Origin: Salinivirgaceae bacterium
GTDB lineage: Bacteria; Bacteroidota; Bacteroidia; Bacteroidales; Salinivirgaceae
Length of the DNA: 64,000 bases
Direction: 5' to 3'
Assembly (NCBI GenBank): GCA_027858775.1
Contig: JAQICA010000282.1
Location: 1 to 64,000 of the forward strand
This document shows positions 5,489 to 46,558 of this stretch, in pieces. Position 1 is the first letter of the stretch; each line of letters opens with the position of its first letter. The notes below the pieces were generated by a model that had not been told where the DNA came from, ran no database searches, and saw nothing but the letters and a program-made list of their open reading frames with translations. Both the position numbers and the translations under genes were made by a program.

Positions 5489-5532
5489 AAAATAAATATA
5501 CCGTAGTTATTGGAGTTTTCTTATGCGCACTA
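5489..5532 (+). repeat. Dispersed palindromic repeat, copy A (right end only)
   Basis: Bases 5511-5532, TGGAGTTTTCTTATGCGCAC plus TA, are identical to 38686-38707 in copy C, and the preceding AGTTAT matches copy D. Only the right third of the element is recognisable here; the left arm is lost or diverged. It lies 44 bases before the kinase start at 5576. See the finding on the repeat family. Confidence 0.65.
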
Positions 5533-5575
5533 TTTAAGTTTTTAGTAACTTGTGCCATAAGCACAATCTTTTATT

Positions 5576-36421: not shown

Positions 36422-36676
36422 AGCAGTAACATTTAGAATTTATAATCAAGTTACACATTATGTAATAGGAAACCAGTTTTTACATAAAAAATTTGGCAAT
36501 AAGTAATGCCAGGACGAAAACCACCTGCTTTTCTGACTGCTTGATTTATATGTTTATAATTTTGATTTTAATGGTCATATGGAGCTCGCCATGATAAGTA
36601 CAATAAGTAACATGCTATTTTATAATTGTCTAATAATAAATATCGTTCGAGACTAAATTTTAGACATGACTCGGTT

Positions 36677-36787
36677 CGAAAAGTTCAAGTTCAAGGCTTG
36701 GCCTTTTTGAAGATCAAGGCGTTCCGATTCTCGGGATAACGGTTTTCAAAAATATAATGCCGTTATTTGAGTTTTCTTAGGCACAAT
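36677..36787 (+). repeat. Dispersed palindromic repeat, copy B
   Basis: Shares with copy D the blocks TTGAAGATCAAGGCG, CCGATTCTCGGGAT, GTTTTCAAAA and GAGTTTTCTTA in the same order. TTTTTGAA and TTCAAAAA form the stem around a TCCGATTCTCGGGA hairpin. Compared with copy D one stem pair is changed on both sides (A-T to T-A), preserving pairing. It lies 49 bases before the M28 peptidase start. The rest of the 36422-36836 gap shows nothing else. Confidence 0.8.
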
Positions 36788-36836
36788 TAACTCGTTTTTT
36801 ATCGAGAGCTTTAGAATTATATTTAAATTTCCCCAT

Positions 36837-38465
36837 ATGAAAAAAATCAGTTTACTCCTTCCGTTATTATTCGCACTTTCAACCTATTCACAAACTACTG
36901 TCGACCATACCACTACTATTGTGCTTACCGAACAGCTTGAAAAACATGTCTATACACTGGCTGCTGATAGTATGGCAGGCCGAGAAACCGGTGAACCCGG
37001 ACAAAAAATGGCTGCCGACTACATTTCGAGTCATTTTCGAAATTATAAACTCGATAGTTTGGGCTTCAATAATTATTATCAATCGTATAACCTTTTTACA
37101 TACAATCGTGGACGGGCATACATTTCGTATAAAGCTACCGGGCAGTGGGCCAAAAAGAGGAATTTTATGTCATTTTTCGGACATGCTTTTTTTACTCATC
37201 CTATATCGTACAACGATACACTTACCTTTTCTTATTTGGGCTATGGTAAACAAGTGCCAAAGCAGGAGCTGAAAAATAAGGTGGTCGTATTACTTCTTGA
37301 TCGGGATTTTGGAACGACCTACGGTAATATAAAGCATATCGCCAAAGACACTGAAGCCCGTTTTTTTGTGGTATTATTTCCCAAAATCGGGTTTCGAAAC
37401 TTCAATCCCCAAAAACACTCTATTGGAGAAACAAATAAAGTAGATCGATTAAATGGGTTATTCGATCGATTTTCGACCTGTTCACTGGAAAAAAACTTAG
37501 CCAAATATCAACAGTCTGTTGATTCCTACAAAGAGTTTGTTGCTCACGACGATACATTATTAATAGCCCTTGCACGTCCCGAAAGAGCCCAAAGCTTGTT
37601 CAATGTATCGTACAAAGAGTTAGTAAAGCTTGAAAAAAAGATAACGAAAGGCAAGGCAAGTCGCGACATCCCATTTCGTAACGATACCGCAATTGTTTTT
37701 GCCGATACCAAAATGCTAATAAAAGATACCGTGCAAACAGAAAATGTGGTTGCATTTATTGAGGGAACTGCCAAAAAAGATGAGGTAATTGTGGTGAGTG
37801 CGCATTACGATCATCTGGGTAAACATGGTGAGCGAGTAGTATCCGGAGCCGATGATAATGCCTCCGGAACGGCTGCAATAATGGAAATGGCCAATGCATT
37901 AGAGCAATTAACGGCAGAAAAGGGGAAACCACTTCGAAGTATTCTTTTTGTTGCTTTTAGTGGTGAAGAAATTGGACTACGCGGCTCCGACTATTTCGTT
38001 TCTAACTGTCCGGTTCCTATAGAATCTGTAGTGCTCAATATGAACTTAGATATGGTTGGACGCAACAGAGCAGGAGAGGAGAAATATAATGAAACCGTAT
38101 TTTTCTTAGCAAATGGAAAACGAAAACGGATGTATAAACGAATGGTTAAACGAAATGGTAAATTAAACGAGAATTTAGATATTTCGTTCCACCCGGGGCT
38201 CGATAAACGACTTATTTGGACATTCTCTTCAGACCATTTTCGGTTTAAACGCCGCAACATTCCATTTATAACCCTATTTACCGGCTTGCACCCCGATTAT
38301 CACACTTCACGTGATACGCCCGACAAAATAAATTATCCGAAACTCACTGAAATAACACGAGTAGGAGCTGAAACTTTATGGCAAATAGCCAATTCGGATA
38401 AAAATATTCAAAGTCGGTTGAAAACCCCAACAACTAAAAATCTGATTGAGCGTCTAATGGATTAG
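36837..38465 (+). CDS. Secreted M28-family zinc aminopeptidase
   Basis: 542 residues; signal peptide cleaved near STYSQ. Residues about 30-150 include SMAGRETGEPGQKMAADYI, the typical N-terminal segment of Bacteroidota M28 enzymes; a PA-like insertion follows. Metal ligands and catalytic residues: VSAHYDHLG (His, about 320), GADDNASGTAA (bridging Asp), FSGEEIGLRGS (catalytic Glu and ligand Glu), NMNLDMVG (Asp) and a C-terminal HPDYHTSRDTPDKI (His). The enzyme should remove N-terminal residues from peptides in the periplasm or outside. No T9SS tail is present. Palindromic repeat copies B and C lie on both sides of it. A second M28 enzyme is encoded at 61547-62782. Confidence 0.93.
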   Translation: MKKISLLLPLLFALSTYSQTTVDHTTTIVLTEQLEKHVYTLAADSMAGRETGEPGQKMAADYISSHFRNYKLDSLGFNNYYQSYNLFTYNRGRAYISYKATGQWAKKRNFMSFFGHAFFTHPISYNDTLTFSYLGYGKQVPKQELKNKVVVLLLDRDFGTTYGNIKHIAKDTEARFFVVLFPKIGFRNFNPQKHSIGETNKVDRLNGLFDRFSTCSLEKNLAKYQQSVDSYKEFVAHDDTLLIALARPERAQSLFNVSYKELVKLEKKITKGKASRDIPFRNDTAIVFADTKMLIKDTVQTENVVAFIEGTAKKDEVIVVSAHYDHLGKHGERVVSGADDNASGTAAIMEMANALEQLTAEKGKPLRSILFVAFSGEEIGLRGSDYFVSNCPVPIESVVLNMNLDMVGRNRAGEEKYNETVFFLANGKRKRMYKRMVKRNGKLNENLDISFHPGLDKRLIWTFSSDHFRFKRRNIPFITLFTGLHPDYHTSRDTPDKINYPKLTEITRVGAETLWQIANSDKNIQSRLKTPTTKNLIERLMD

Positions 38466-38524
38466 TTTTATTATATTGCATCCCTTAACTTAGTAATTCC
38501 AAGAAAACACATTTTTTTGTTGTG

Positions 38525-38708
38525 GGCAGTAATAAAACTTCAAGAACAAGCCTTGCATCTGCATAGCTTCAATGAACGCGGATGGAACAGTCAACCTGTC
38601 CTCGAAAATCGTGAGTTGGTTCATATCGAAAATCAATGCATACCGATTCTCATAATTGATGTTTTCAAAATGGATAGCTATGTACTGGAGTTTTCTTATG
38701 CGCACTAC
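38525..38708 (+). repeat. Dispersed palindromic repeat, copy C (with insertion)
   Basis: The left end, 38527-38550, is identical over 24 bases to 46240-46263 of copy D. The right end, 38686-38707, is identical over 22 bases to copy A. The middle keeps CCGATTCTC and GTTTTCAAAATG but is about 60 bases longer than in copy D, with an extra segment at roughly 38565-38640. It lies directly upstream of the M1 peptidase and supplies part of the open frame before its real start. Confidence 0.82.
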
Positions 38709-38733
38709 TTATGAAACAATAAAAGATAAGCTT

Positions 38734-40665
38734 ATGAAAAGTAAAAATGGTTTTTATAGACTAATTAGCGTTGCATTTTTTTTGACATTCCTTGTGCCAA
38801 ATGTCAGCAGCCAATCGGGTGGCGTACTTTCCCCCAGACAGGCCGCCTATGATGTTAATTTTTACGATTTGGAAATCGCATTTGATTTCGAAACGAAAAC
38901 AATTGAGGGCTCATTACTTTGCCGTGCTAAAGTAATTGATCCAATCGACTCACTTGAGCTTGATTTGAGAAGGACCTATGATGTTGATTCTGTTTTGTGT
39001 GCTTTGAATAATAATACGTTGAGTGCAGTTGGTTTTCGGCACGAATCCGGCAAACTGATGATTAATATTCCCGAAGATGCAACTTCTGATCAGGTGGTTA
39101 CTGTAAAAGTATTTTATGGCGGTGCTCCTCCGCTCACCTCGGGTTTGCCATGGAGCAGTGGCTTTGACTGGAATACTACTTTTAATGGAATTGGTTATGT
39201 GGGCGTTGCATGTGAAATGGATGGAGGAGATGTTTGGTGGCCATGCAAAGATCATCCTTCTGATGAACCCGATTCTGTAGCATTGAGCTTCACCGTACCT
39301 CAGCCACTCGAATGTGTCTCAAATGGTGTTTTTGTCGATAGCTTGCATCATGGCGATAGCACAACCACTTTCCGGTGGTTTGTTTCTTCTCCCATAAATA
39401 ATTATAACGTAACATTTTACATTGATGAATTTGTGCTTATAGAGGATAAGTATTCTAGTGTTATTGGCGACTCAATACCATTTTATTTTTGGGTACGACC
39501 ATCGCATTACGACCGTGCTATGGAAATGATGGAGCCTTACAAGGAAGAATTTGACTTTCTTGAATCGATTGGTGGGCCATACCCTTTTGGACATGAGAAA
39601 CACGCATTTGCACATTGTCATTATCCCGGCATGGAACATCAATCCATTATTGCTTATGGATCTAATTTTGCTCTCAATAGTTGGGGATTTGATTATATTC
39701 ACTTACACGAATTAGCTCATGAATGGTGGGGGAATCTTCTCACAGCAAAAAACTGGGCCGATGTGTGGATTCATGAGGGCATTGCGACCTACACCGAGGC
39801 TCTTTATGTAGAGCATATTGCCGGGATAGACCGTTATTTCGACTATGTACATAATATTTGGCCATCTAGCTCTACTGTACCATTGGCTCCGCGTCAGGAG
39901 CTTACTACCGATGAAGGGTACGACTTGAATCCATACTATCGCGGAGCTGCCGTGATGCATACATTACGCTATTACCTTGGCGATGAGGAGTTTTTTAACG
40001 TTTTAAAGCATTGGGCATATCCAGATACTACCGATTACGATAATACAAATGGCAGACAGTGCAGGCTTGTTACAACAGACGATTTGCTGGCACAAACAGA
40101 GGATATTACAGGAAGAGACATGGATGCATTTTTTGAAGTGTTTTTCAGAGAGGCTTGGTACCCCAAAATTTATTATACACGATACGAATCGGAAATTGCC
40201 TTTGAGTGGAGAACCCAAACGGGTGTTCTGCTCGATTTGAATATCCCGGTTGTTGCAAATGGAGTAGAATATACTGTTGAAATGGTCGATGGATTTGGGA
40301 GTCTCCCCGTGCCCGGAGACGCAGAATTGGTTATTGATCCCAACAAATGGTTACTCGATAAAACACCAGAGGAACTTGTTGGATTAAATCAGCAATTTGT
40401 TGGCAAAGGATATAAATTGGAGCAAAACTATCCGAACCCTGCTGATAATAGAACCACAATAAAATTAACAATTCCTAAATATGAACATGTTTCATTAAAA
40501 ATATATAATTCGTTGGGAAAAGAAGTGCTGAGTGTGTTCGACCGGAAATTAATGCCAAATACCTATGAAACTACTGTAGATCTGACCCAATTTGAACCCG
40601 GAATTTATTATTATATCATGCAGGTAAATGAATTTGCAGATACTAAACGTTTAATGATTCGTTAA
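38734..40665 (+). CDS. Secreted M1-family metallopeptidase with T9SS sorting domain
   Basis: 643 residues from ATG 38734; the open frame extends to 38656 but that part is repeat DNA and would mask the signal peptide (FYRLISVAFFLTFLVPNVSS). M1 hallmarks: the exopeptidase motif in this lineage appears as CHYPGMEHQSII, and the zinc site is HELAHEWWGN (H325, E326, H329) plus E348 in DVWIHEGIATYTEAL. The C-terminal 85 residues are a T9SS type A sorting domain (LEQNYPNPADNRTTIKL, GIYYYIMQ, KRLMIR). It probably acts at the cell surface as an aminopeptidase on imported or external peptides. The GAMEN motif has become GMEH, which may alter N-terminal recognition. A terminator follows at 40793. Confidence 0.94.
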   Translation: MKSKNGFYRLISVAFFLTFLVPNVSSQSGGVLSPRQAAYDVNFYDLEIAFDFETKTIEGSLLCRAKVIDPIDSLELDLRRTYDVDSVLCALNNNTLSAVGFRHESGKLMINIPEDATSDQVVTVKVFYGGAPPLTSGLPWSSGFDWNTTFNGIGYVGVACEMDGGDVWWPCKDHPSDEPDSVALSFTVPQPLECVSNGVFVDSLHHGDSTTTFRWFVSSPINNYNVTFYIDEFVLIEDKYSSVIGDSIPFYFWVRPSHYDRAMEMMEPYKEEFDFLESIGGPYPFGHEKHAFAHCHYPGMEHQSIIAYGSNFALNSWGFDYIHLHELAHEWWGNLLTAKNWADVWIHEGIATYTEALYVEHIAGIDRYFDYVHNIWPSSSTVPLAPRQELTTDEGYDLNPYYRGAAVMHTLRYYLGDEEFFNVLKHWAYPDTTDYDNTNGRQCRLVTTDDLLAQTEDITGRDMDAFFEVFFREAWYPKIYYTRYESEIAFEWRTQTGVLLDLNIPVVANGVEYTVEMVDGFGSLPVPGDAELVIDPNKWLLDKTPEELVGLNQQFVGKGYKLEQNYPNPADNRTTIKLTIPKYEHVSLKIYNSLGKEVLSVFDRKLMPNTYETTVDLTQFEPGIYYYIMQVNEFADTKRLMIR

Positions 40666-40792
40666 TTTTTTTTTCAATGTCGATAACTCAGCGCAACCAA
40701 TAATTCGTCTGAGGTTTAAATTTGTTAGTTTTACCAATAAACAGAAGTGAATTTTTATGCCATGAATCAGGTGTAATTTTTGGGGTACAAGC

Positions 40793-40832
40793 GAACCGGG
40801 AGCGGCTGAAAGGCTTCTTCCGGTTCTTTTTT
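40793..40832 (+). terminator. Rho-independent terminator
   Basis: GAACCGG (40793-40799) pairs with CCGGTTC (40820-40826), with a smaller AGC/GCT pair inside and a run of six T residues after. It ends the M1 peptidase transcript just upstream of the blaI promoter. Confidence 0.85.
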
Positions 40833-40850
40833 ATACGGGAAAACTAAGAA

Positions 40851-40906
40851 TTTAGTTAACTAACTAAAAAAATAGTTGTGTAACTAATAGTTTAGTTTTA
40901 TATTTG
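40851..40906 (+). promoter_or_regulatory. blaI promoter with overlapping palindromic operators
   Basis: The promoter reads GTTG at 40875-40878, 20-base spacer, TATATTTG at 40899-40906. Upstream, TTTAGTTA and TAACTAAA form a perfect 8-base inverted repeat around AC (40851-40868). A second pair, TAGTT / AACTA, spans 40873-40886 over the -33 region, and AACTA-A-TAGTT at 40882-40892 lies in the spacer. The repeated TAGTTA/TAACTA words are good candidates for the binding site of the BlaI-type repressor encoded next, so autorepression is inferred. Confidence 0.65.
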
Positions 40907-40912
40907 CAGTGT

Positions 40913-40933
40913 AATGATGATTGAACGCACGCA
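40913..40933 (+). repeat. Left arm of inverted repeat flanking blaI/M56-TonB
   Basis: AATGATGATTGAACGCACGC plus A. Its reverse complement, lacking one T, is found at 42700-42719, directly after the M56-TonB gene. In the mRNA it lies in the leader, about 7 bases after the -7 element. Confidence 0.75.
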
Positions 40934-40964
40934 CGTTTGTCGAACGGAGTAATAATTTTGAACT

Positions 40965-41345
40965 ATGACAGAGCTTACCAAAGCAGAAGAACAAATAATG
41001 CAGCAACTGTGGTCCCTGAAAAACGCATTTGTAAAAGATATTGTCGATCAACTCCCTCAGCCCAAACCGGCTTACAATACTGTATCTACAATTGTTCGCA
41101 TTTTAGAGAAAAAGGGATTTGTTGCACATGATGCATTTGGAAAATCGCATCGATATTACCCGTTGGTTTCAAAAAAGACCTATACACGCGGCTTTATGAA
41201 AGGATTTTTGAACAACTATTTTAGTAATTCTTTTAAAAACCTGGTTTCGTTTTTTGCTAAAGATAAATCGTTAAGCATAGCAGAAATGGAGGAGCTGAAG
41301 AATATGTTGGAAGTTGAAATTGAACGTCAAAAAAATAATGCATAG
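40965..41345 (+). CDS. BlaI/MecI/CopY-family transcriptional repressor
   Basis: 126 residues. The N-terminal winged helix has LTKAEEQIMQQLWSLKNAFV and the recognition region PAYNTVSTIVRILEKKGFVA; the wing reads HRYYPLVSKKTY and the C-terminal helices mediate dimerisation. Repressors of this family bind palindromes as dimers and are released when a membrane M56 peptidase, encoded next to them, triggers their cleavage. The M56-TonB gene begins 20 bases downstream, and palindromes cover the promoter. An alternative frame ORF at 40937 is a shadow. The regulated genes beyond this operon are unknown; no beta-lactamase is nearby. Confidence 0.93.
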   Translation: MTELTKAEEQIMQQLWSLKNAFVKDIVDQLPQPKPAYNTVSTIVRILEKKGFVAHDAFGKSHRYYPLVSKKTYTRGFMKGFLNNYFSNSFKNLVSFFAKDKSLSIAEMEELKNMLEVEIERQKNNA

Positions 41346-41365
41346 ATCATTTTAAACTCGAAATT

Positions 41366-42691
41366 ATGATTGACTTGCTCACTACACCCGGGTGGTTTAT
41401 TTACCTGCTGGAATCGACAGTATGTTTGATGTTTTTTGCAGTATTTTATCTGTTATTTTTGCGGAAGCAAACGTTGTTTCAGGTAAACCGATATTATTTA
41501 CTGGTTACCTTGTTTCTGAGTTTGTTTATTCCGGCTATTGATTGGTTAATTCATATCCCAAATTCTTTGGCGGCGCCGGTAGTGCTTCTTGATACAGTGG
41601 TGGTTACCGCCCGCTATGCCGAAGGGGTTGCAGCTCAAACTATGCAGCAATTTCCGTGGTTAGCCGTTTTACTTTTGTCGGGCTCCGGCCTTGTTCTTTT
41701 CTTTTTAGTAGGTAGCTTCGGGTATATAATTTCACTGAGATTGAGTAGCGATATTGTTCGGAAAGACGGCGTTGTGTTTGTTATTAACGAACAAATCAAA
41801 CATCCATTTTCTTTTGGGTACTTCATATTTTTACATCCGAAATTGTTTTACAATGAGGAATATAACCATATAATAATTCACGAAAAAGTTCACGTAAAGC
41901 AGTATCACACAATCGATTTATTAGTTTCAGGTATAGTAGCAGCATTACAATGGTTTAATCCATTTGCATGGATTTACAGAGATGCATTTCGCGAAGTACA
42001 CGAATATATGGCCGATCAGCAGGTTTTAAAGCAGGGTGTGGATCCCATTCTGTATAGGAAAACCATGGTTGAAGAGGCCGGAGGGCTAATGCCCGGAAGT
42101 TTAAGTTTTTTTAATGTTTCATTTACAAAAAGGAGGTTTAAAATGATGTCAACAATTAAAACACCAAAAACCAAAGCACTTAAAGTGCTGGTTATGATAC
42201 CTTTTACCATTATTATGGTTCTGGTATTTTCTTGTAGTACCGATTACGAAAATGAGGATGTTCCTACAGCTCCAACAGAAGTTCCCGCCGTAACGCAAGA
42301 TGCCGTTCAAGCGCCGAGTAAAGTGGACGATGCTACACCAGTTTACTCAGTTGTGGAGCAAATGCCCGAATACGAAGGTGGCATGCAGAAGCTTTCTCAG
42401 GATATTAGCTCAGGAGTTGTTTTTCCAGAAAAAGCCAAAGCCGATGGTATTGAAGCCAAAGTGTATGTGCAATTTATTATCGACGAGTCGGGTAGGGTTA
42501 CCAATGTTGGCGTAGCTCGTATTGTCGATCTGGCGGGCAATGAGGTAACTTTTGGAGATGCTTTTTCTGCATCGTTTTCCGAAGCCGCTATAAATTCTGT
42601 TAAAGGCTTGGCGAACTGGAAACCCGGAATGCAAAATGGTGAAAATGTGCGTGTTAAGTTCGTGATCCCCATAGCATTTAAATTAGATTAA
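41366..42691 (+). CDS. M56-family membrane peptidase with C-terminal TonB domain (BlaR1-like)
   Basis: 441 residues. Four membrane helices are predicted (about 10-32, 40-58, 97-120, 273-291). The zinc site lies in the cytoplasmic loop: IIIHEKVHVKQYH (HExxH) and EVHEYMADQQVL (Glu ligand). After the last helix comes FSCSTDYENED, a Cys that could be lipidated only if the protein were cleaved there, then a linker and a TonB C-terminal domain (about 335-441: VVFPEKAKADGIEAKVYVQF, GLANWKPGMQNGENVRVKF). BlaR1-type proteins sense a signal outside and cut their BlaI partner inside. Here the penicillin-binding sensor is replaced by a TonB-like domain, common in Bacteroidota, so the signal may concern outer-membrane receptors. 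A TonB-dependent receptor gene follows at 43189. Confidence 0.9.
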   Translation: MIDLLTTPGWFIYLLESTVCLMFFAVFYLLFLRKQTLFQVNRYYLLVTLFLSLFIPAIDWLIHIPNSLAAPVVLLDTVVVTARYAEGVAAQTMQQFPWLAVLLLSGSGLVLFFLVGSFGYIISLRLSSDIVRKDGVVFVINEQIKHPFSFGYFIFLHPKLFYNEEYNHIIIHEKVHVKQYHTIDLLVSGIVAALQWFNPFAWIYRDAFREVHEYMADQQVLKQGVDPILYRKTMVEEAGGLMPGSLSFFNVSFTKRRFKMMSTIKTPKTKALKVLVMIPFTIIMVLVFSCSTDYENEDVPTAPTEVPAVTQDAVQAPSKVDDATPVYSVVEQMPEYEGGMQKLSQDISSGVVFPEKAKADGIEAKVYVQFIIDESGRVTNVGVARIVDLAGNEVTFGDAFSASFSEAAINSVKGLANWKPGMQNGENVRVKFVIPIAFKLD

Positions 42692-42699
42692 CAAATTGT

Positions 42700-42719
42700 T
42701 GCGTGCGTTCATCATCATT
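42700..42719 (-). repeat. Right arm of inverted repeat flanking blaI/M56-TonB
   Basis: The minus strand reads AATGATGATGAACGCACGCA, matching 40913-40933 except for one missing T. It begins 9 bases after the stop codon of the M56-TonB gene. Between 42720 and 43188 (about 470 bases) I see no gene, no terminator with a T-tract and no convincing promoter. Confidence 0.75.
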
Positions 42720-43188
42720 CTAAAACTACTTTTTCCTTAATTCCATCATTACAAACCCTATAGTCTAACTTAGAAAACTTTGTGCTTTGAATACTTAATG
42801 AGAATTTCGCAATTATGAAATCTTGGTTTGTAATTTTTTATTATTTACTCCCTCTCTTTAAAGTAACTACGTATTTCTACTACTTTTGCTATTCTAATTC
42901 TTTGCTATTACTAGCACAGCAATATCCCTCCAATTTACGTTTGATTCCGCGAACACTTTTAATTGCCACATAATTAGTGCTTTGTCGGCCAGTTTCAAAA
43001 CGCGCCATTTATTACAACGAAGATGTAGTTGTTTATACAGTTATGTTAAAAATGGTAGTTTGGTAGTAGATTTACTCTAAAATATATTTTTATCTTTAGC
43101 TTTAGCTTCGAAGGGGCTTGTTTTACCGGTTCTTTTTGAGTGAATTGACTTTGAGAATTGTTAACTGAAAATTTACGATCACAAACTA

Positions 43189-45162
43189 ATGCTTATGAAA
43201 AGAGTTATTTTACTTTCGATTTCTATTGTCTTGTTTTTTACGATTAACGGCATCGCGCAAAGCGACGATATTGAGCAAACCGCAATGTTTGAGATGTCAT
43301 TGGAAGAATTGATGAATATTGAGGTGAGCGTGGCAGGTAAAAATGCCGTTTCGAATATTCGGGAAACACCCGGAGCGATTAGTACAATTAGTCGTAGAGA
43401 AATTCAATTGAGTGGTGCTTACGATTTAATGGAGGTGCTTCAGCGGCTGGTGCCGGGACTTGCTTTTGGTACCGATGTGGAAGGTGTTACCGGTATTGGT
43501 GTACGAGGAATATGGGCACACGAAGGTAAAGTGCTTCTCATGATTAACGGAATTAGCATGAATGATGAGCAATTTGCCACTACGCAATACGGAAACCATA
43601 TTAATGCCGATATGATTGAGAAAATAGAAATTATTCGCGGTCCCGGAAGTAGCGTTTATGGTGGATATGCCGAAATGGGCGTTATTAATGTTATTACATC
43701 TGAGGAAGAAAATGAGGGACGTATTTCGCATGCATCATCTATAGCACAATCGGGGATGGTGCGAGAAAACTATTCGGCTTCTGCTGGAATCACGCACAAC
43801 GATTTACAGATATCCATAAATGCCTCTCTCAATAAAGGAAATCGGAGTGATGCCGTTTATCGCGATTTTACAGGTCGCGATACAAGTTTTTTGAATTCAA
43901 ATGAAATAAACAGCGTTTATCTTGGGGCTAATATTAATTACCAAGGGCTACAAGTTTCTATGCTGATGGACAAGTACGAAATAAGCACGATGGATTTGTG
44001 GGGAGCTCATTCTCCTGTTGCTTTTAACGAGAAATGGGACACTTATGGCGCAAATATGAGCTACGACTTTGAATTTGGCGACCTGAAAATTACGCCATAC
44101 ACAAAAGTAAAGTATCAGCTGCCCTGGAATACTCAAATGGTGGCGGAGGAGTACATAAACAATAAAAATGCTCAAAAACTCACCACCGGGGTTGTTCTTC
44201 AGTATAAGCTGAGTGATCAAATTTCTTTTACTGCCGGAACAGAAGGGTATGAGCATAACTTAATGTTGCCAGACGATATATCGGACTACGAAGAGGTTTT
44301 TCGTTCCGGAAAAGATGTGATGACCATTAGTAGCATTGGTGCATTTGCGCAAAGCACATTGAAAACCCAAATTGCAAACGTAATGGCTGGTGTAAGATAC
44401 GATCGGTTTAGCGAATTTGGTGATGCCTTTGTACCGCGATTGGCAGTAACAAAAATAATTGGAAATTTCCATATGAAAGGCATGGCCAGCGGATCGTTCA
44501 GAATACCCGGTGGAATTATTCCTAACCGAACTTTTGACGTGAATACGAAAATTGAACCCGAAAAAGTATGGTCCTATGAGTTGGAGGCGGGGCTGCGCTT
44601 TTCGGAGAACAATTTCCTTACAGTTAACGGCTTTTATCATGATCTGCGTAATGTAATTGTATATCAAACCGAAGGAGCCATTGGGTTTTATGGAAACGGT
44701 GGCAGACTTGGAACAGCCGGTGTTGAAGCTGCTTACCGATATGTTACACGATTACTGAACTTGAATATTAACTATGCCTATTATAAGCCTATGGGCTCTT
44801 TGGAGAACGATTATATTGTTCCCCAAAAAGACAACTATTACCTGGGCTTTGCCAATCATCGGGTAAATGCAAATGCCAGCTTGAGAATTCAGGATAATGC
44901 TTATTTTAATTTGGCTATGCGTTTCTATGGTAACCGATATGGAATTGTGGGCGATGGACTTATTGCTAAATCGGATGATGGACTGTATTTGGATGCTAAT
45001 TTTGTTCTCGATCGGTTTTTAGTCCAAAACCTGAGTACATCTTTCGGTATTCAAAACCTATCTGACAATAGATTTATTTATTATCAAGCGTATAATGGAG
45101 GCCATGCCGGTTTGCCATCGCTGGGAAGAACACTGATGGTGAAGGTCGAGTATCGTTTTTAG
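43189..45162 (+). CDS. TonB-dependent outer-membrane receptor
   Basis: 657 residues (or 655 from the ATG at 43195). Signal peptide to about residue 24 (INGIAQ). The plug domain runs about 40-165: ISTISRREIQLSGAYDLMEV, QRLVPGLAFG, GIGVRGIWAHEGKVLLMING and the classic EKIEIIRGPGSSVYGG. The rest forms the 22-strand barrel and ends in an aromatic residue (VKVEYRF). No carboxypeptidase-like N-terminal domain or SusD partner is present, so it is of the simple FhuA/BtuB/FepA type rather than a SusC. Such receptors import iron complexes, vitamins or other scarce ligands using TonB energy. The substrate is not deducible. The upstream M56-TonB pair may sense or regulate it. Confidence 0.92.
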   Translation: MLMKRVILLSISIVLFFTINGIAQSDDIEQTAMFEMSLEELMNIEVSVAGKNAVSNIRETPGAISTISRREIQLSGAYDLMEVLQRLVPGLAFGTDVEGVTGIGVRGIWAHEGKVLLMINGISMNDEQFATTQYGNHINADMIEKIEIIRGPGSSVYGGYAEMGVINVITSEEENEGRISHASSIAQSGMVRENYSASAGITHNDLQISINASLNKGNRSDAVYRDFTGRDTSFLNSNEINSVYLGANINYQGLQVSMLMDKYEISTMDLWGAHSPVAFNEKWDTYGANMSYDFEFGDLKITPYTKVKYQLPWNTQMVAEEYINNKNAQKLTTGVVLQYKLSDQISFTAGTEGYEHNLMLPDDISDYEEVFRSGKDVMTISSIGAFAQSTLKTQIANVMAGVRYDRFSEFGDAFVPRLAVTKIIGNFHMKGMASGSFRIPGGIIPNRTFDVNTKIEPEKVWSYELEAGLRFSENNFLTVNGFYHDLRNVIVYQTEGAIGFYGNGGRLGTAGVEAAYRYVTRLLNLNINYAYYKPMGSLENDYIVPQKDNYYLGFANHRVNANASLRIQDNAYFNLAMRFYGNRYGIVGDGLIAKSDDGLYLDANFVLDRFLVQNLSTSFGIQNLSDNRFIYYQAYNGGHAGLPSLGRTLMVKVEYRF

Positions 45163-45164
45163 CA

Positions 45165-46049
45165 TTATTGATACCAATGGAATACAACCTTTTCTTGTTG
45201 ATAACTTACAGCAGGCAATGGTATTTTAATCATGTTCAGGGCTCGCAACAGTACGCGAAGCCCTTTTCTTTTTGTATTAATTTGCTGCCAGTCAATATCA
45301 AGCGATAACAAAAACTGTCGGTATCGTTCGGGATAAGCGTTGTCCGTTTTGTGTCCGGCAACCATTCCATGGGCTCCGTAGCCGCCGGAAATGGCCAGCC
45401 ATTTGGGTATGGCTTTAATTCCCGTAAGCCTGTTCAATCCCACGCTTAACCAGTATGTTTGTGCATTGTAGTCTTTCAGCATGCGCTCAGGCAAATTGCC
45501 TCCCAGCTTGTCGGGCGCCATAGTAGCATAGGGAGAAGGCCGGTAGCTGTATTTTAACCGAACAATTTGCTCGTTAAAGGCAAGTGCCTGCGATAAATAT
45601 AATCCAACGCCTGTTGTGTTGGCCATCAGGTCGCCGGCAGAAGCGCCCCAATGTTTCGAAAAACCATCGAAAAGCTCAATGCTGCTTATTATCGTTAAGG
45701 CTATGCCGCTACTGAGTATGACCGCTTTTTTTTCGCTCAGACCTGTTTTCTGCAGTAACCTTCCGTTTTGTAACGATAGTTGATAAGCTGCATAGGTGTG
45801 CCCCGCTTTATCCATTTGTAACCACTCGTTATTGTCGTTAAACCAATGAAACCGGGTTCTGGGATAGTTCTTGTACCACGCTTCATTTAGTACCAACATT
45901 GCACCTGCATAGCTTACTGCTTCAGCGGTAATTAAATGTGTTGGTTGTATTGTAAATTGCAGCGAATCTTCTTTATGCTGGGCGTGCACAGGTGTGCCGA
46001 AAATAAAAATAGTTACAAGCGCGTAGAGCAATATGCGAAACCGATACAT
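45165..46049 (-). CDS. DUF2279-family (YfiM-like) envelope protein
   Basis: 294 residues. Signal peptide cleaved near VHAQ. The motif WFNDNNEWLQMDKAGHTYAA (about 68-87) followed by a region with small hydrophobic helices (GIALTIISSIELFDGFSKHW, ASAGDLMANTTGVGLYLS) matches the DUF2279 predicted periplasmic family. The C-terminal half has beta strands. The function is unknown. The gene ends 2 bases from the stop of the TonB-dependent receptor, in convergent orientation, so the two share their 3' region. Confidence 0.75.
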   Translation of the reverse strand: MYRFRILLYALVTIFIFGTPVHAQHKEDSLQFTIQPTHLITAEAVSYAGAMLVLNEAWYKNYPRTRFHWFNDNNEWLQMDKAGHTYAAYQLSLQNGRLLQKTGLSEKKAVILSSGIALTIISSIELFDGFSKHWGASAGDLMANTTGVGLYLSQALAFNEQIVRLKYSYRPSPYATMAPDKLGGNLPERMLKDYNAQTYWLSVGLNRLTGIKAIPKWLAISGGYGAHGMVAGHKTDNAYPERYRQFLLSLDIDWQQINTKRKGLRVLLRALNMIKIPLPAVSYQQEKVVFHWYQ

Positions 46050-46236
46050 GGTTAATTCAATTTCTCCAAATCTACAAACTTTTAGTTACATGATGAAATT
46101 ACCGAACAGGCATACGGTGTCTGCTGTGTTGCTCTTCTGGTCCCGAGAAGCAATTATTGGTTTATTCATTTTAATTTGTTACCTCTGCAGTCATATTTGT
46201 TGTTTCTGTAGCTAAAAACCTCCTGTTTTTTGGTGT

Positions 46237-46360
46237 GCCCAGTAATAAAACTTCAAGAACAAGGCTTGTTCATTTTGAAGATCAAGGCGTCCCGATTCTC
46301 GGGATTACTGTTTTCAAAATGAACATAACGCAGTTATTGGAGTTTTCTCATATACACTAC
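46237..46360 (+). repeat. Dispersed palindromic repeat, copy D (most complete)
   Basis: GTTCATTTTGAA (46268-46279) and TTCAAAATGAAC (46313-46324) form a perfect 12-base stem. Inside it TCCCGA-TTC-TCGGGA (46290-46304) makes a second hairpin. The outer ends AAAACTTCAAGAAC (46247 region) and the reverse complement of GTTATTGGAGTTTT (46332-46346 region) match at about 11 of 14 positions, so the whole element is one long imperfect palindrome. GAACAAG-G-CTTGTTC is a further nested palindrome on the left. The remainder of 46050-46558 is empty. Confidence 0.85.
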
Positions 46361-46558
46361 AAGTAGTGTTTATAGTTGTTTTCGCTACAACGATGGTCGC
46401 TTACGGGCACTATGTAGTAGGAAACAGAAGATTTTGGAATAAATGACAGAGAGCGCTAGAAATTACTTTTGTAAAGGGAAAAGTTTTTTTATTCCCGTTT
46501 TTTTATGTTTTTTTTGTTTGTTTCCCTAAACGCATTAACTTTATTAAAAAAATATATT

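Follow-up and report, generated by a model that had tools for sequence, protein, structure and literature searches.

A probable class-wide family of MITE-like elements with a covarying folded core and an oriented excess at stop codons in Bacteroidota

Overview

The DNA examined, a stretch of 64,000 nucleotides from a Salinivirgaceae bacterium (the window), contains several intergenic repeats that probably belong to a class-wide family of miniature, non-autonomous, MITE-like transposons. Members have terminal inverted repeats (TIRs), a second TIR-like repeat and a 6 bp target, TANNTA, that is duplicated on insertion, and it is the combination of TIRs and a duplicated target that leads to this classification. 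An earlier note on the window had considered selection on the fold and mobility of a REP- or MITE-like kind. Target-site duplication, copies found across the class and covariation all back the view of a MITE-like mobile element whose fold is under selection.

Elements in the window

Four copies, A to D, had been described between genes, and all four are present (Table 1). The 24 nt common to C and D (CAGTAATAAAACTTCAAGAACAAG) and the 22 nt common to A and C (TGGAGTTTTCTTATGCGCACTA) are also there as described. However, the left end and the last 50 bases of D had been missed, and the aligned copies place the left boundary previously given inside the element. D starts with a degenerate left terminal repeat, GCTAAAAACCTCC, which is followed by the second TIR-like repeat, GTGTGCCCAGTAATAAAACTTC, and then by the folded core. 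At the right end of D, an extra hairpin segment (ATATACACTACAAGTAGTGTTTATAG...GGTCGC) lies ahead of TTACGGGCAC, and the aligned copies show the same segment in L002 and L004. Copies A, B and C are degenerate, and B represents a sub-family with a longer left part that is shared with L041.

From the aligned copies, a full copy in the genome that includes the window is made up of TAGTGCCAGCACGAAAACCACCTGTTTTTTG - GTGTGCCCAGTAATAAAACTTCAAGAAC - AAGGCTT - stem - tip - stem - CATAACGCAGTTATTGGAGTTTTATTACGGGCACTA. The outermost repeat on the left and the end on the right form the TIRs, which are GTGYYTGCAAGAAAAC-like and about 17-22 bp long, and the second TIR-like copy is located within the left end. 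The elements are short, non-coding and present in many copies, with lengths of about 35-260 bp.

Table 1. Coordinates of the elements and their target sites in the window
Feature	Coordinates	Strand	Details
Element A, right end only	5489-5530	+	Followed by TATTTA at 5531-5536
Remnant of a further copy	36500-36590	+	TAAGTA then ATGCCAGGACGAAAACCACCTGC, left terminal repeat; interior decayed
Element B, core	36635-36792	+	48.7 bits (covariance model); ends decayed
Left target-site copy of C	38487-38492	+	AACTTA
Element C, side arm enlarged	38493-38705	+	Covariance-model match 38485-38713, 51.9 bits
Right target-site copy of C	38706-38711	+	TACTTA
Left target-site copy of D	46205-46210	+	TCTGTA, 5/6 positions identical to the right copy
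Element D, complete	46211-46410	+	132 bits (covariance model)
Conserved folded core of D	46247-46346	+	Stem 1, AAGGCTT side arm, stem 2, TCCCGATTCTCGGGA tip, ATAACGCAGTTATTGG strand
Right target-site copy of D	46411-46416	+	TATGTA

Copy number and distribution

The earlier note had given a handful of copies without covariation as an outcome that would count against its reading. A genome-wide count, which it had proposed, instead found that D matches 41 places in its own genome (4.25 Mb, 305 contigs) at E <= 1.2e-15, which is far above chance, and covariation was strong (see below). A pattern for the right end was found at 34 places in this genome versus 2 for a reversed-pattern control, and one for the left end at 26 places versus 0 for the control. 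Matches were present in 53 of 393 genomes at the level of the order, and the covariance model identified 26 of 395 genomes in the class, namely the genome of the window and 25 others. An exact pattern search recovered 53 stretches from named records, 52 titled Bacteroidota, Bacteroidales or named members of these and one titled Chlorobiota. TIR counts reach 110-157 per genome.

Rfam release 15 has no matching family at either gathering or permissive thresholds. Neither the ends nor the tip matched viral contigs, and the plasmids searched gave no meaningful match. Distant relatives of the core in L316, L317, L322 and L323 are without TANNTA ends and lie within long inverted repeats such as GGGCATCTCTAAAAAC...GTTTTTAGAGATGCCC; these are possibly part of a deeper superfamily.

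Target-site duplication and the mobile unit

Target-site duplication, a check suggested earlier, was assessed using 99 distinct copies, whose boundaries were set by the model independently of the flanking sequence. Identical 6-mers flank 52 of the 99 copies, compared with a mean of 7.9 and a maximum of 18 in 5000 shuffles. The target is a directly repeated 6 bp TANNTA, and where both flanks are TANNTA the NN are equal in 48 of 54 copies (9.3 when shuffled). Among informative NN, 34 are direct and 1 is inverted, and this, together with the identical flanks, indicates duplication of the target and not extension of a palindrome. In G001, a complete genome from the same genus, the ends and target repeats of several copies are perfect, e.g. 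TAACTA/GTCTC...GGCAC/TAACTA. Fresh target duplications show that movement has been recent.

Some copies consist only of TIRs with intact duplications, namely L220 (35 bp, TAACTA on both sides) and L099 (36 bp). In others (L167:5480-5633, L224:1380-1523, L213 and L240), the palindrome between these terminal repeats is a different, unrelated one, TGTCATTTCGA...TCGAAATGACA. It is therefore the ends that define the mobile unit. For core-bearing copies, no clean empty site was found in relatives. A 153 bp indel between orthologous regions (L154:864-1018 versus L161:6337-6351) was considered as an empty site and rejected; it holds a TTTCCCGAAGTTTCGGGA palindrome and is unrelated to the element.

Covariation in the folded core

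D folds better than all 200 of its dinucleotide shuffles (z = -5.7), and the compensatory double change reported earlier, from A-T in D (CATTTTG/CAAAATG) to T-A in B (CTTTTTG/CAAAAAT), is present. Extending the analysis to further copies, as had been proposed, gave an alignment of 102 distinct copies in which 39 of 42 pairs have changes on both sides. This covariance alignment is fitted to the structure, but two-sided changes were already found in 24 of the 36 pairs predicted by RNAalifold from a prior, unfitted MAFFT alignment of 39 copies. In the model alignment, 93.6 % of cells pair versus 78.8 % when shuffled, and the covariation of 0.422, versus 0.156 for shuffled alignments, was reached by none of 500 shuffles, with slid controls below 0.1. 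The fold is real, and the strong covariation supports selection on it. The degenerate state of A, B and C would suit palindromes arisen by chance, or old repeats in decay whose structure is not under selection. However, both the covariation and the 41 strong copies in the same genome refute this reading, which retains essentially no probability.

G.U is more frequent than A.C at 23 pairs and less frequent at 8, in an alignment where fitting to the model slightly favours G.U and the A.C count is raised by one pair out of register. Near fixation is seen for two wobbles, U.G in 86 and G.U in 95 of the 102 copies. Unpaired bases are also conserved across the class. In most of the copies tested, the window strand read from left to right folds better than the opposite strand, and this bias suggests that selection probably acts on one single strand, either RNA or DNA.

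Exchange of hairpin arms

By eye, the core forms a three-way junction in which some copies have TCCCGATAGCAATCGGGA in place of the side arm AAGGCTT, and some have CCGTACGG in place of the tip TTTACnnnGTAAA. At an orthologous site with matching flanks, L154:1466-1623 and L161:6785-6951 differ by few substitutions and in both arms, while at the orthologous sites in L206/L218 and L165/L199 the side arm differs. The swaps involve whole modules (AAGGCTT versus GTCCCGATAATTATCGGGAT, and TTTACTAAAGTAAA versus CCGTACGG), with little else changed. Hairpin arms are replaced in place between species, and the TCCCGATTCTCGGGA tip of D is one of the interchangeable palindromes.

Position and orientation at stop codons

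Where the right end faces the 3' end of a gene, a stop codon is found at offsets -3 to +3 in about 40 of 67 cases; for the left end the figure is 4 of 42. For copies with a recognisable target, a native stop lies within -10 to +8 on the right in 40 of 81 and on the left in 6 of 81. When the empty sites were rebuilt, native stops of full-length ORFs were at offset 0 (the target opens with TAA/TAG) or +4 (TA and the next base) on the right in 18 of 65 and on the left in 4 of 65. Among non-disrupting TANNTA sites in similar sequence, which served as the background, 7.4 % have a 0/+4 relation on both sides together (3.7 % per side). Relative to this, the excess on the right is about 7-fold (p about 2e-11) and the left side is not significant, in a statistic based on simple ORF calls that also counts some orthologous locus pairs (e.g. 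L203/L206), judged too few to alter the conclusion. The copies in the window show no such placement; the left target copy of C starts about 20 bp past the stop of the gene at 36837-38465.

Exact 0/+4 stops were also found for TIR-only copies and for copies with other interiors. Hence, the bias arises from how the ends are inserted or retained, independently of the core, and it seems to be a property of insertion. These observations bear on whether the repeats are instead a structured RNA or 3'-UTR element serving the host, such as a terminator or mRNA stabiliser, that was dispersed by chance and kept at stop codons by selection. Very strong covariation, conservation of unpaired bases across the class and placement at gene 3' ends would suit such a role. 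However, the strand with the weaker fold is the one read by the gene at stop codons, coreless copies are located there too and the fresh target duplications reflect recent movement, making a host function quite improbable. A preference for TANTTA over TAANTA was considered as the cause of the orientation and is unlikely, as TAAGTA, TAAATA and TAACTA are, by eye, as common as TACTTA, TATTTA and TAGTTA. For copies that do not lie at stop codons, the two flanks differ little in GC content.

Under the favoured reading, that of a MITE-like transposon, a transposase or integrase supplied in trans would recognise the ends and insert the element at TANNTA, and its right end would preferentially join the 3' boundary of a gene. 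Such an insertion would spare the protein, since the stop codon either stays within the target (TAA/TAG NTA) or is restored, as TA|G, where element and target meet. The core may persist because the folded single strand aids the life cycle of the element or makes copies in 3' untranslated regions tolerable. That a transposition system reads the stop codon as the 3' boundary of many unrelated genes in a fixed orientation, and that the elements it moves have a folded strand conserved throughout the class and arms swapped as modules, is a tentative and somewhat doubtful proposal.

Candidate mobilizing enzymes

None of the loci examined has a transposase gene enclosed by matching ends, and it is from this that we infer mobilization in trans. 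Candidate autonomous copies in G001 and G095 were dismissed, as their unpaired ends are those of short or decayed copies. The IS4 transposase with DUF4372 (PF14294) was also rejected as the parent, because its ends (CACTAGTGTCC...) differ and there is no TANNTA duplication. The DUF4372 IS4-type elements in L255, L259 and L262 have ends such as CACTAGTGTCCACTAAAA and TAGTACTGATGCGTTAA.

A REP-like element and a search for a Y1 (TnpA_REP) transposase gene were among the suggestions of the earlier note. On this reading, a REP/REPIN-like element would be moved by a Y1 (RAYT/TnpA_REP) transposase acting on the folded single strand. The elements are indeed folded intergenic palindromes with one strand folding better, and Y1 genes are present in all 16 genomes tested. 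However, RAYT-associated REPs are 20-40 nt hairpins with a GTAG tag and do not duplicate the target, whereas these elements lack the tag and have a direct 6 bp target duplication. Of 30 Y1 loci in the 16 element-bearing genomes, none is flanked by copies, the one nearby TIR pair being an incidental neighbour of a broken Y1 remnant. Several Y1 genes (L334, L337, L357 and others) are flanked by separate, unrelated REP-like repeats, AACCCCGAAGGGGTGA, and the tip motif is no more frequent around Y1 genes (56 matches) than in control loci of similar size (61 matches). Mobilization by this route is accordingly very improbable. L349 and L358 (G001:C1:1393776-1394967) contain equal-scoring Y1 transposase genes in tandem with a spacing of 847 bp.

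A tyrosine recombinase could use the ends as core sites flanking a 6 bp overlap (GGCAC-TANNTA-GTGCC at the circle junction), with a small folded circle integrating. Inverted arms around a 6 bp spacer, direct core repeats, the single TANNTA shared by some tandem neighbours and a stable folded strand are all compatible with this. However, no recombinase was linked to the element, targets have only TA..TA in common, which would leave minimal overlap homology, and a 6 bp duplication equally marks a DDE transposase; we regard this system as unlikely. A DDE transposase with a 6 bp stagger and a tyrosine recombinase with a 6 bp overlap would both leave such marks, and prior knowledge of MITEs (PMC10969869) slightly favours the former.

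Relationship to known elements

MITEs such as Correia/NEMIS, RUP, Nezha and ERIC are short, foldable, intergenic and free of ORFs, with TIRs, a target duplication and a high copy number (PMC10969869). The elements described here share all of these properties and are MITE-like by every feature tested, except for a parent element. They differ from known MITEs in the 6 bp TANNTA target and in that no parent insertion sequence was found in the loci examined. The class-wide covarying core, the oriented insertion at stop codons and the exchange of hairpin arms are new relative to MITEs.

REPs and REPINs, with their RAYTs, are likewise dispersed palindromes and have been hypothesised to act as folded single strands (PMC3733652). 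The present elements differ from these in lacking the tag, in duplicating their target and in not adjoining Y1 genes. BrickBuilt, a MITE of Porphyromonas gingivalis, has IS5-type terminal repeats (AAGACCTTTGCA), variable target duplications and an internal minisatellite (PMC4596501). The similarity is that of a MITE in Bacteroidota, and those three features set BrickBuilt apart.

Tn7 inserts at a gene end, attTn7, with its right end toward the gene and the protein spared, and this one conserved site is read by TnsD. The elements described here also have the right end toward the gene at a gene end but, unlike Tn7, are found at many different genes with the stop codon within the duplicated target. 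No description of the family was found in the literature of one open-access library, which is weak evidence of novelty, and it is apparently undescribed to date.

As the family is spread over many genomes of one class, it offers extensive data on the question of why a covarying fold is maintained in a MITE, and the arm swaps at common sites are hairpin modules replaced in place. From the oriented excess at stop codons, one can envisage how a transposon might spread in compact genomes while leaving proteins unbroken. The rule for the target, a TANNTA at a stop codon and a right end that points to the gene, is directly testable.
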